A stretch of DNA of 38,539 nt from a virus. This document shows, piece after piece, positions 1,436-38,539 of this stretch. The position numbers and the translations under genes are program-made. The notes beneath the pieces are model-generated. The model was not told the origin of the DNA. It saw nothing but the letters and a program-made list of their open reading frames with translations, and did no database searches. The stretch lies in the IMG/VR virus record IMGVR_UViG_3300025843_000003, positions 1-38,539 of that record; one strand, written 5' to 3'. The number at the start of each line of letters is the position of its first letter. Positions within the stretch are counted from its first letter, which is position 1.

Positions 1436-2232
1436 TCACCAGGGGCGTCAAGCCCGAGCGCGACTTCGCCATCATCAGTAACACCTTGCTGCGCGACACA
1501 TCGCTGTCGTTCCGCGCAAGGGGCATCCTGTGCTGCATTTTGAGCCATGCAGAGGGCTACCGCATTTCGTCCGACCGCCTGGTTGATATGGGCCTGGAAG
1601 GCCGCGACGCTATCCGCAGCTCACTGGCTGAGCTGGAGTCTGTCGGCTACCTCAAGCGCACAAAGACCCAAGACGCAAAGGGTCAGTGGTCAACCAACGC
1701 CATCATCAGTGATACGCCTGATTTTGGCGGACCCGCTGAACCGACGACTGGAAAACCGACGCCTGAAAAACCGGCGTCGGATAACCGGGCGTCGGTTTTT
1801 CAGGCGCTTAAAGAAGACAAAGAAGAAGATAAGAAGAAGAAGAAGGAAGCAGTTCCAAAAATCAGCTTCGATGGTCTGAAATTTCAAGACCTGTCAGTCG
1901 GTCAAATTGAAGTCTGGTCAGCCGCATACCCCGCCATCAGCGTGACGGCCGAAATCCTCAAGGCTGCGGTGTGGCTCGACGCCAACCCAGCTAACCAGAA
2001 GTCGGACTACAAGCGATTCCTGAACAACTGGCTTTGCCGGGCGCAGGACAAGGCGCCCGCCAGGGCTGCCCAGCAGCAGGCACCGCGCCAAGCTGCACCG
2101 CGCTACGCCAGCACCGCACAGACCACGGCTGACCGCCGCGCAGCCACCCTCGCCGGATTGACCGGCCAAGACAACAACACCCAAGGACAAGACCATGCTC
2201 GCACCATCGACGCTCAATCGCGCTTCATCTGA
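1429..2232 (+). CDS. Phage replication initiator, lambda-O-like, with winged helix-turn-helix N terminus
   Basis: 267 aa. Residues 1-80 form a winged-helix DNA-binding domain of the kind seen in phage replication proteins (LSFRARGILCCILSH, then YRISSDRLVDMG and IRSSLAELESVGYLKR). The middle (about 100-145) is low complexity: four 5-residue blocks encoded by the iterons at 1745-1804, then a Lys/Glu run. The C terminus (about 150-215) is a compact domain with a FLNNWLCRAQ motif, followed by an Ala/Gln-rich tail. Position ahead of a P-like gene and an in-gene origin match lambdoid O. It overlaps the next gene by 38 bp. Expected role: bind the iterons and load the replisome. Confidence 0.7.
   Translation: MLITRGVKPERDFAIISNTLLRDTSLSFRARGILCCILSHAEGYRISSDRLVDMGLEGRDAIRSSLAELESVGYLKRTKTQDAKGQWSTNAIISDTPDFGGPAEPTTGKPTPEKPASDNRASVFQALKEDKEEDKKKKKEAVPKISFDGLKFQDLSVGQIEVWSAAYPAISVTAEILKAAVWLDANPANQKSDYKRFLNNWLCRAQDKAPARAAQQQAPRQAAPRYASTAQTTADRRAATLAGLTGQDNNTQGQDHARTIDAQSRFI
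1745..1862 (+). repeat. Iterons plus purine-rich tract: candidate replication origin inside the O-like gene
   Basis: Four 15-bp blocks abut: 1745-1759, 1760-1774, 1775-1789 (direct) and 1790-1804 (inverted). Copies 2 and 4 form a 14-bp perfect inverted repeat (CGCCTGAAAAACCG / CGGTTTTTCAGGCG). Copy 3 is degenerate. The 15-bp period preserves the reading frame. Directly downstream is a one-sided A/G tract (about 1806-1850) encoding the Lys/Glu run. Lambda ori has the same plan: four O-binding iterons within gene O followed by an A-rich unwinding region. The function is inferred from this match. Confidence 0.6.
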
Positions 2233-5101: not shown

Positions 5102-6025
5102 ATGGAAAAATTTCAAATCAAAAATCGCTACACGGGCGCCGTCCTGTTCGCGCACGAGCCGCTGGCCGATCAAGTAAGTGGAATGGCTGCACGCCACGCG
5201 CTGGAGGCCGCCGTGAAGACCGGCGCGAACCTGCGCGGCGCGAACCTGCGCGACGCGAACCTGCGCGGCGCGAACCTGCGCGGCGCGAACCTGCGCGGCG
5301 CGGACCTGCGCGGCGCGGACCTGCGCGGCGCGGACCTGCGCGACGCGGACCTGACCGGCGCGAACCTGACCGGCGCGAACCTGACCGGCGCGGACCTGCG
5401 CGGCGCGGACCTGCGCGACGCGAACCTGTGCGACGCGAACCTGCGCGGCGCGAACCTGTGCGACGCGAACCTGCGCGGCGCGAACCTGCGCGGCGCGAAC
5501 CTGCGCGACGCGTACCTGTGCGGCGCGGACCTGCGCGGCGCGGACCTGCGCGACGCGTACCTGTGCGACGCGAACCTGTGCGACGCGAACCTGTGCGACG
5601 CGAACCTGCGCGGCGCGAACCTGCGCGGCGCGAACCTGCGCGACGCGTACCTGTGCGGCGCGGACCTGACCGGCGCGGACCTGACCGGCGCGAACCTGAC
5701 CGGCGCGTACCTGCGCGGCGCGAACCTGTGCGGCGCGAACCTGTGCGACGCGAACCTGCGCGGCGCGTACCTGGGTGAAAAAATCAAAATGGTCGGCGAC
5801 CGGCCCATGTTGCAGATCAGCCCCATCGGCTCGCGCTCCGACACGCTACACATCTACCTGACGGATGCGGGCATGCACATCCGCGCAGGCTGCTTCTTCG
5901 GCCCCCGCGAAAAGTTTGTCGAGGCACTGACCAAAGAGCATGGCGAGAACATCCACGGCGTCGAGTACCGGGCTGCGCTGGCGCTTGCTGATGCTCACGC
6001 GGAACTGTGGACGCCCAAGCAATGA
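5102..6025 (+). CDS. Pentapeptide-repeat protein with unique C-terminal domain
   Basis: 307 aa. After a 40-residue N-terminal part come about 36 pentapeptides of the pattern A(N/D/Y)L(R/T/C)(G/D), which would fold as a right-handed quadrilateral beta-helix. The last ~85 residues are a non-repeat domain (IKMVGDRPMLQISPIG...FFGPREKFVEALTKEHGENIHGVEYRAALALAD) that looks like the real functional module. Known pentapeptide proteins such as Qnr and MfpA mimic DNA and bind gyrase, but nothing here proves that role. It has its own strong promoter, so high or early expression is expected, and its stop overlaps the next start (ATGA). Confidence 0.85.
   Translation: MEKFQIKNRYTGAVLFAHEPLADQVSGMAARHALEAAVKTGANLRGANLRDANLRGANLRGANLRGADLRGADLRGADLRDADLTGANLTGANLTGADLRGADLRDANLCDANLRGANLCDANLRGANLRGANLRDAYLCGADLRGADLRDAYLCDANLCDANLCDANLRGANLRGANLRDAYLCGADLTGADLTGANLTGAYLRGANLCGANLCDANLRGAYLGEKIKMVGDRPMLQISPIGSRSDTLHIYLTDAGMHIRAGCFFGPREKFVEALTKEHGENIHGVEYRAALALADAHAELWTPKQ
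5224..5768 (+). repeat. 15-bp DNA repeat array encoding the pentapeptides
   Basis: About 36 units of gcg-Nac-ctg-NNc-gNc. By eye the Ala codon is always gcg, Leu always ctg, and variable codons differ only at their first or second base (aac/gac/tac; cgc/acc/tgc; ggc/gac). No synonymous change is apparent inside the array, so it is very homogeneous and prone to copy-number change. Confidence 0.9.
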
Positions 6026-6957: not shown

Positions 6958-6960
6958 AAT
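6932..6960 (+). promoter_or_regulatory. Promoter driving the non-coding region
   Basis: TTGAAA (6932-6937), a 17-bp spacer and TAGAAT (6955-6960), with start expected near 6967. No good coding frame follows until 7616, so its first product is an RNA of up to several hundred nucleotides. Position between the nin-like genes and the late genes recalls lambda pR', which makes a terminated leader RNA until Q acts (inference). Confidence 0.6.
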
Positions 6961-6966
6961 TTATTC

Positions 6967-7382
6967 CGTAGCAAGTAAGGTAAACCGAAAGGATGCAAGA
7001 AAGCTTGACACTCCGGAAAGACGGGGACTATCAAGTAAGCGGCTTGGCAATACGAACGGTTCATGCAGCGCGAGGCACAGACGTTTTACCCTAAGCTGCT
7101 TTCTTAATGGGAGATAGAAATGCTTTTGTTTATTTTCGGTCTTTGCCTTGCGGTGACGCAAGACAAAGTAAGGGTAAATGGTTTTGATCCGCCGGGCGAA
7201 AATTCAACGGCGGAGATGAAGGAGAGTGAGCTGGAAGCAAGGCCTAAGGGGGGTCTTTAGCTTGGAGGTCTATTTATTTCCTGTGGATTAGATTTGCACC
7301 CTTAAGGTGCTGCCATCAAGTAAGCGGTAACAAGCCCCGGTCTTGGAGGGGCTTTCCGGTAACGCTCAAATACCAAGTTTTA
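6967..7382 (+). ncRNA. Candidate large structured non-coding RNA
   Basis: No coding frame here has a good ribosome site or family match, yet strong RNA structure is visible. CTCCG/CGGGG forms a hairpin near 7012-7028. An 8-bp outer stem joins TTTACCCT (7085-7092) to AGGGTAAA (7171-7178). It encloses an 11-bp hairpin with one mismatch and a GTGA tetraloop (7141-7168). CCGCC/GGCGG occurs near 7190-7215, and a GCACC-cttaa-GGTGC hairpin near 7296-7310. The 13-mer ATCAAGTAAGCGG occurs exactly twice (7030-7042, 7315-7327). With tRNA-shaped elements directly downstream, this resembles the setting of large ornate phage RNAs such as GOLLD or ROOL. Family membership is untested. Confidence 0.45.
7332..7355 (+). 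terminator. Terminator-like hairpin within the non-coding region
   Basis: AAGCCCC (7332-7338) pairs with GGGGCTT (7348-7354) across a 9-nt loop. Only a short T run follows, so termination would be weak or conditional. It could separate the structured RNA from the tRNA-like elements. Confidence 0.5.
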
Positions 7383-7476
7383 GGGCGCCCATGAGGTGTC
7401 TCTAACCATGACGCGCAAGCTGTCGAGAGATTAATTCATGGTTGGGGAGTCGGTTTGATTCCGGCATTGCCCATCA
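7383..7476 (+). tRNA. Degenerate tRNA-shaped element with enlarged anticodon loop
   Basis: The T arm is good: GTCGG (7449-7453), loop TTTGATT, CCGGC (7461-7465). It is preceded by a 5-nt variable loop and an anticodon-position stem AACCATGA/TCATGGTT (7404-7411, 7436-7443). The 3' side ATTGCCC then A-TCA stands where an acceptor strand plus CCA would be, but only about 5 of 7 acceptor pairs form with GGGCGCC (7383-7389). The D arm is truncated. Instead of a 7-nt anticodon loop there are about 30 nt between the 5-bp stem halves. It is probably not a working tRNA, but its plan mirrors the next element. Confidence 0.3.
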
Positions 7477-7482
7477 AGTTTT

Positions 7483-7592
7483 TGCAGTGTAGCTCAGTCG
7501 GAAGAGTAGGCGGTGAAAGAAAAAGATGCAGGCAGGAAATGGCCTTCATCTCCACTGCTGGCGCGCTGGTTCGACACCAGCCATTGCAACCA
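7483..7592 (+). tRNA. tRNA-shaped gene with about 34-nt insertion in the anticodon loop
   Basis: The cloverleaf is otherwise regular: acceptor TGCAGTG/CATTGCA with 7 of 7 pairs (one G-U), T8-A9, D stem GCTC/GAGT with loop AGTCGGAA, one-base linker, and anticodon stem GGCGG/CTGCT extended by 2 bp. There follow a 5-nt variable loop, T arm GCTGG-TTCGACA-CCAGC, discriminator A and encoded CCA (7590-7592). Between the 5-bp anticodon stem halves lie 41 nt (7514-7554) instead of 7, including an internal GATG/CATC hairpin. No anticodon can be read. Bacterial tRNA introns are normally group I introns, which are much longer. Possibilities are a tRNA-like mimic, a decayed tRNA or an unusual intron. Confidence 0.55.
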
Positions 7593-7615
7593 AGTTTCAA
7601 CAACAGGAGCGTGAA

Positions 7616-36811: not shown

Positions 36812-36945
36812 TACCCTCGTTGCGGAGGGCGGCGCCGGTCTTTCCCGGCTGTCATACCCTAGCGGCACTTCGGCGGCCTCAGGACCATGCGATCTGCACG
36901 GCGGCACCCAGCGCATTACGCATCGGCCAATTTCTTCTATATGAG

Positions 36946-37118
36946 CCGAGAGTGATGACAGGGGCGGGCTGGAGCTGATCCCAGCTTGCCGACAACTTCG
37001 TACTCACATCAGGCTCCGGTCGGCGATTGCTCGCACGTGGGGCAGGCTGGGGTCGGCGGTAGATAACCTTGCACATCAGCACTGTGCGTTCCGCCTTTGT
37101 CATCACTCTCGGATTTTT
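36946..37118 (+). ncRNA. Candidate structured RNA between the leftward operon and the operators
   Basis: A 15-bp perfect inverted repeat, CCGAGAGTGATGACA (36946-36960) and its complement (37098-37112), encloses about 137 bp containing smaller hairpins such as GCTGG/CCAGC. On the + strand TTTTT (37114-37118) follows the right arm. A weak promoter, TTACGC (36916-36921), 16 bp, TATATG (36938-36943), would start the RNA at the left arm. A 75-codon frame on the - strand covers this segment but has no family match. In a phage with no CI gene, an RNA at this place is a candidate immunity or antisense regulator. The function is unknown. Confidence 0.35.
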
Positions 37119-38397: not shown

Positions 38398-38539
38398 TCT
38401 ACCAGATCCACCGCCGCGCGCGCTGGTGCCGGCCGCGCGCGCTGGTGCCGGCCGCGCGCGCTGGTGCCGGCCGCGCGCGCTGGTGCCGGCCGCGCGCGCT
38501 GGTGCCGGCCGCGCGCGCTGGTGCCGGCCGCGCGCGCTG
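38394..38539 (+). CDS. Partial frame running into the terminal repeat
   Basis: GTG at 38394 overlaps the previous stop (GTGA) and opens MIYQIHRRA, then runs in frame through the 19-bp repeats to the window end. If the repeat between the two ends were one copy (or 1 mod 3), the frame would continue into the C4-like RNA region and stop at 318. It is either a real small gene disrupted by repeat expansion or chance readthrough of a stop-free repeat. Confidence 0.3.
   Translation, partial: MIYQIHRRARWCRPRALVPAARAGAGRARWCRPRALVPAARAGAGRAR
38416..38539. repeat. 19-bp GC-only tandem repeat, right end
   Basis: Six full copies (38416-38529) plus 10 bp. Same unit and phase-independent with the left-end array. 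The ends do not form one exact overlap, because the left array has only 5.3 copies before unique sequence. Confidence 0.95.

Follow-up and report, generated by a model that had tools for sequence, protein, structure and literature searches.

A tRNA-like module with an enlarged anticodon-position arm in a noncoding array of a P22-like phage

Introduction

Phages encode ordinary tRNAs with a complete cloverleaf, D arm, T arm, acceptor and CCA end, and it has been proposed that changes in the anticodon loop allow such tRNAs to evade tRNA-targeting host defences (PMC10264068). The tRNA shape also occurs outside translation. Work cited in PMC12282133 describes bacterial Y RNAs as mimics of tRNA; that paper likewise reports them from phages and suggests a Y-RNA identity for an RNA of one phage. 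HDV-like theta ribozymes are structured RNAs that adjoin phage tRNAs, possibly for processing (PMC10879173). In tmRNA, a tRNA-like domain is retained and the anticodon arm is replaced by something else.

Here we analyse a 38,539-base stretch of DNA (the window), IMG/VR virus record IMGVR_UViG_3300025843_000003, in which two consecutive tRNA-shaped modules lie downstream of a conserved RNA hairpin. The second module (module 2) resembles ordinary phage tRNAs in every part of its cloverleaf except one: a 41-nt loop with its own hairpin occupies the anticodon position, and the molecule therefore cannot decode as it stands. It is much shorter than tmRNA, and neither ARAGORN nor Rfam matches a tmRNA in the window, where a tmRNA profile and a tag reading frame are likewise absent. 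Unlike bacterial Y RNAs, the locus has no YrlA match in Rfam and no gene for a TROVE or DUF2828 protein. In contrast to theta ribozymes, the upstream element, UGACA-GARAGA, is a simple 5-bp hairpin for which Rfam lists no family at the places checked.

Results

The window encodes a set of P22-like proteins, comprising an anti-repressor, replication proteins, NinB, terminase, portal, major head protein and RecE/RecT-like proteins. Since the same 19-bp tandem repeat (GCGCGCGCTGGTGCCGGCC) is found at both ends (1-101 and 38413-38539), the genome is probably near complete; the end repeats could reflect a near-complete genome joined at the repeat or an assembly artefact. Among named genomes, the nearest terminases (80-82% identity) are those of Massilia and Pseudorhodoferax, from which we infer that the host is probably a member of the Burkholderiales. 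Both modules are located in a largely noncoding gap (6958-7615) that is flanked by the NinB region on one side and by small ORFs preceding the terminase genes on the other, so that a noncoding array of RNA modules of roughly 0.65 kb precedes the packaging genes of this P22-like phage. Elsewhere in the window, Rfam identifies a C4 antisense RNA (1222-1306) beside the anti-repressor gene, and a pentapeptide-like repeat protein is encoded at 5102-6025, where a 15-bp DNA repeat occurs about 37 times.

Module 2 (7483-7592, plus strand) was characterized by folding, ARAGORN, a covariance model and randomised windows. Its acceptor stem (7483-7489/7582-7588) forms 7/7 pairs, one of them G-U, and the D arm (GCTC/GAGT) forms 4/4 pairs and has the GG in its loop. 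The T arm (7565-7581) has 5/5 pairs and the canonical loop TTCGACA, the variable loop is GGCGC (7560-7564), and the 3' end consists of a discriminator A followed by CCA (7590-7592). Module 2 thus combines the 7-bp acceptor, D arm, T arm and CCA by which we define a cloverleaf shell, and lacks the 7-nt anticodon loop with U33 and purine 37 of a functional tRNA. Instead, a 5-bp stem (7509-7513/7555-7559) encloses 41 nt (7514-7554), compared with 7 nt in a normal anticodon loop. In the unconstrained fold this stem extends to 7 bp (7509-7515/7553-7559) and the insert folds onto it, giving an enlarged anticodon-position arm (7509-7559, plus strand) with an inner hairpin at 7524-7533/7542-7551, as calculated by RNAfold for this single sequence. 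The perfect shell, the extended anticodon-position hairpin and the 5-nt variable loop are the defining features of the enlarged-arm class considered below.

The cloverleaf of module 2 is the minimum-energy fold obtained without constraints (RNAfold), and its whole-module energy (z -1.6) is modest rather than exceptional. Against a covariance model trained on 26 ordinary class I tRNAs, module 2 scores 42.6 bits (E 2.5e-14) with zero non-standard pairs in the filtered search; an unfiltered search split the shell into hits of 17.1 and 11.9 bits, presumably owing to a limit on hit length. The fold and this score bear out the initial annotation, which had described an acceptor, D arm, variable loop, T arm and CCA with 41 nt for the anticodon loop, and the inner hairpin that it placed within these 41 nt reappears in the unconstrained fold. 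Shells with both D arm and CCA were found in 0/150 randomised windows, and across 786 kb of related phage loci the sole CCA-bearing shell belongs to an ordinary tRNA. Standard searches pass over the module: Rfam does not report the shell even at E 10, and ARAGORN returns nothing by default. The 3' part of the insert (7543-7560) is also complementary to 7205-7222 (83% over 18 nt, with 11 bp perfect), which is a possible alternative pairing; when it is folded within 650 nt of context, 11 bp between its insert and 7212-7222 compete with the module 2 fold.

Once introns are allowed, ARAGORN reports module 2 as tRNA-Glu(ctc) with a 34-nt 'intron', as would be expected of a functional tRNA whose anticodon-loop intron is removed by splicing. 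For each shell, we asked whether a 5-bp anticodon stem with U33 and a purine at 37 remains once a single continuous stretch is taken out. No such removal exists for module 2, and the ARAGORN solution carries C37. Other phage contigs do contain tRNAs with an intron-like insert, and 15 of 21 of their shells (kind Y below) pass the same test, where 0.3 would be expected. Their insert lies mostly after position 27-29, and the restored anticodons are sensible, for example GTT, TTT, GAT and TCC. By comparison, none of nine kind X shells passes; six of 19 kind Z shells do, although the long stems of this kind make passing easy. The insert of module 2 also lacks the CAGCAA motif of the intron-like family, and Rfam matches no group I or group II intron in the window. 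With no single cut that would recover a canonical anticodon arm, module 2 is unlikely to contain a simple intron, an explanation rejected on this test; overall we consider a spliced tRNA improbable, and the 'intron-like insertion' offered in the initial annotation fits this locus poorly.

Module 1 (7383-7476, plus strand) is a more degenerate neighbour of module 2. It has a T arm (7449-7465) whose loop, TTTGATT, has lost C56, a 5-nt variable loop (GGGGA) and a long hairpin (7404-7443) whose stem (7404-7411/7436-7443) comprises 8 bp, or 12 bp when the neighbouring CTCT/GGGG pairs are added, around a 24-nt loop. The acceptor is reduced to its half, GGGC/GCCC, a 3-bp GAG/CTC hairpin takes the place of a real D arm, and the 3' end is TCA instead of CCA. 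Accordingly, module 1 falls outside our definition of a cloverleaf shell and reaches only 10.9 bits with the tRNA covariance model; its folding energy (z -2.0) is modest. Thus, the T arm, long hairpin and 5-nt variable loop first noted for this module are present, but its identity as a tRNA is weak, and the proposal that both modules depart from a tRNA in the same way holds for the long anticodon-position hairpin. A common boundary heptamer, CAAGTTT (7374, 7475 and 7591), marks the end of each module and of the stretch that precedes them, which hints at a tandem array. A further module may lie at 7313-7378 (plus strand), where a 7-bp hairpin (7332-7354) precedes the CAAGTTT boundary at 7374.

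To look for this architecture elsewhere, we used the pattern TAGCTCAGTNGGNAGAG-N50-78-GGTTCGA, which exceeds the length of class I and class II tRNAs. At least 120 IMG/VR stretches match, and most of the matches listed have 7/7 acceptor and 5/5 T-arm pairs; this and the other IMG/VR counts are lower bounds from strict patterns without de-replication. A similar pattern applied to 393 genomes from the bacterial family to which the Massilia relative belongs gave two matches, both ordinary tRNAs followed by a stray GGTTCGA, so that this search found no enlarged shell among them, while a companion pattern for ordinary tRNAs matched in 40/40 bacterial genomes tried. Sorted by eye, the phage shells fall into several kinds. 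Those most like the window's (kind Z; L202, L175, L181, L135, L123, L146 and others) have an extended hairpin on the anticodon stem and a 5-nt variable loop, and several, those named among them, score 58-72 bits with the tRNA model. Kind X is one sequence family (L153, L191, L204 and others). Kind Y has a 39-51-nt insert, a hairpin followed by the CAGCAA motif, in the 5' strand of the anticodon stem; such intron-like tRNA genes were seen in IMG/VR phage contigs L197, L111, L125, L160, L185, L142, L114, L136, L154 and others. Two further variants were noted: in L115 and L171 the enlarged anticodon loop seems to hold a miniature element of acceptor and T arm, which in L115 ends in ACCA, and a tRNA shell without any anticodon arm lies near ordinary tRNA genes in one genome from the bacterial host family (L246, around 1501-1527, minus strand).

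The kinds also differ in the genes that accompany them. DUF2828, a Ro60-like protein family with a vWA domain, is encoded in 21 of 24 kind Y records against 0/18 of kind Z and 0/7 of kind X, and in L223 two kind Y shells lie just upstream of the DUF2828 gene (L223:5655-7567). A related set of shells thus travels with a Ro60-like gene, which, together with the description of Y RNAs as tRNA mimics and their report from phages (PMC12282133), would favour a Y-RNA-like partner of a Ro60-type protein in the window too, as suggested for other phages. However, DUF2828 (PF11443) and TROVE (PF05731) are both absent from the window, whose contig looks near complete, and TROVE was found in 0/50 records tested; the missing YrlA or Y RNA match in Rfam is a soft negative, as Rfam missed the tRNA shell too. 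Unless a host Ro60 is used, this explanation is largely refuted, and we regard it as very unlikely. Because module 2 fails the excision test and DUF2828 is missing, the window's modules are neither intron tRNAs of kind Y nor DUF2828 partners.

Homologues of module 1 or module 2 were found neither in phage records nor by acceptor and D-arm pattern searches in IMG/VR. BLAST of the modules against the 393 bacterial genomes yielded nothing but short matches, some of them within coding genes. The insert aligns over 35 nt with the conserved start of a gene that appears to resemble pntB (L243, L254, L255); this match was dismissed as chance, its E-value equalling that of an obvious coding coincidence (L242). 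The modules are absent from the loci of terminase relatives, namely 80 viral loci and two prophages, in Massilia (L224) and Pseudorhodoferax (L225). It is common for temperate phages to contain a 3' tRNA fragment, and module 2, with its T arm, acceptor and CCA intact, could on that ground be what is left of an attachment site, in which the phage keeps the 3' half of a host tRNA for integration. Yet the 5' half is likewise intact, the 3' half retrieves from the 393 genomes no host tRNA beyond ordinary tRNA similarity, and an integrase was not identified among the proteins scanned, which leaves this origin scarcely credible.

The main rival is decay: an ordinary phage tRNA would have suffered a random insertion in its anticodon loop and not yet have eroded, module 1 being an older ruin. 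The eroded appearance of module 1 and the missing homologues agree with this, as does the lineage-specific occurrence, the only terminase-relative loci with a tRNA at the corresponding place being L033 and L034, where it is an ordinary tRNA-Gly. Against it, all modelled pairs of module 2 are intact, the CCA and canonical T loop are present, the insert itself folds onto the anticodon stem and the same plan recurs across many phages. We judge decay unlikely, if the weightiest of the rivals.

Upstream of the modules lies a conserved phage RNA hairpin, UGACA-CUCCG-GAAAGA-CGGGG (7006-7026, plus strand), and a second copy, UGACA-GCCGG-GAAAGA-CCGGC, is found at 36834-36854 on the minus strand; both have UGACA, a 5-bp stem and a GARAGA loop. 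The exact core GACACYCCGGARAGACGGGG occurs in at least 120 IMG/VR stretches and, together with the window, has 116 distinct flanks among the matches listed. In a relaxed search of all fetched loci (additional hairpin loci carry labels L263-L382), 101 of 107 keep at least 4/5 stem pairs. As the loci were mostly picked by one stem sequence, the informative ones are the stem variants: CCCCG/CGGGG, GCCGG/CCGGC, CCGTG/CACGG, ATCTG/CAGAT, GCTTG/CAAGC and CGCGG/CCGCG. Judged by this covariation, the element UGACA-N5-GARAGA-N5' is an RNA hairpin. A promoter at its TTGACA was considered and rejected, as the promoter scan does not list it and covariation marks an RNA hairpin.

Elsewhere, the hairpin is often a neighbour of tRNAs or unusual tRNA shells. 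Within 250 nt on its downstream side, 12 tRNAs or tRNA shells begin, compared with 0.55 expected, and it stands directly 5' of kind X shells (L216, L173), kind Y shells (L162, L174, L217) and ordinary tRNAs (L148, L150). A helix of at least 11 Watson-Crick pairs follows it immediately in 21 of 110 cases versus 2 of 100 controls. In the window, an 11-bp hairpin with nine Watson-Crick pairs (7037-7101, plus strand) is predicted to start shortly after the first copy, an arrangement frequent in other phages, and a structured noncoding module closed by a 23-pair helix (36946-37112, minus strand) is predicted just upstream of the second. At hairpin loci L292, L309, L284, L311 and L335, modules closed by 14-22-bp helices lie downstream, and in L292 and L309 the closing helix continues a tRNA-like acceptor stem outward. 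Since a nearby copy is missing from most kind Z shells of other phages, the link between the conserved hairpin and the window's modules is only suggestive.

Discussion

On the basis of fold, model score and recurrence, module 2 may best be read as a noncoding tRNA mimic that has no anticodon, in preference to a spliced tRNA, with a probability of roughly 0.48. This reading is favoured because the shell is perfect, the anticodon is lost and the departure is widespread in phages and found in none of the 393 bacterial genomes. The suggestion of selected tRNA mimics made at the outset is thus favoured for module 2, with selection itself only presumed; the tRNA features of module 1 are weak.

The array would be co-transcribed with the neighbouring genes, and tRNA-processing enzymes would recognise the shell of module 2 and cut it to length, releasing a stable RNA. 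The shell might then display its hairpin; alternatively, it might act as a decoy that occupies host tRNA-binding factors such as processing enzymes, the CCA enzyme or tRNA-targeting toxins. More tentatively, the window could be one array of an unrecognised phage class of tRNA-scaffolded noncoding RNAs, in which other hairpins replace the anticodon arm, a new conserved hairpin for processing, UGACA-N5-GARAGA-N5', punctuates the arrays, and the RNAs are used against or alongside the host tRNA machinery; we consider such a class conceivable rather than probable. An open-access literature search found no description of the enlarged-anticodon shell class or of the UGACA-GARAGA hairpin.

Because such shells occur in many other phages, the tRNA shape may serve phages outside translation. 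Default tRNA finders, here ARAGORN, skip these genes, and a set of phage RNAs may thus be overlooked; the upstream hairpin, with its covarying stem and no Rfam match, offers a simple handle to find more of them. If the RNA is made, the tRNA shell would provide a ready-made scaffold or decoy during infection, and this would bear on the question of why phages carry tRNA genes.
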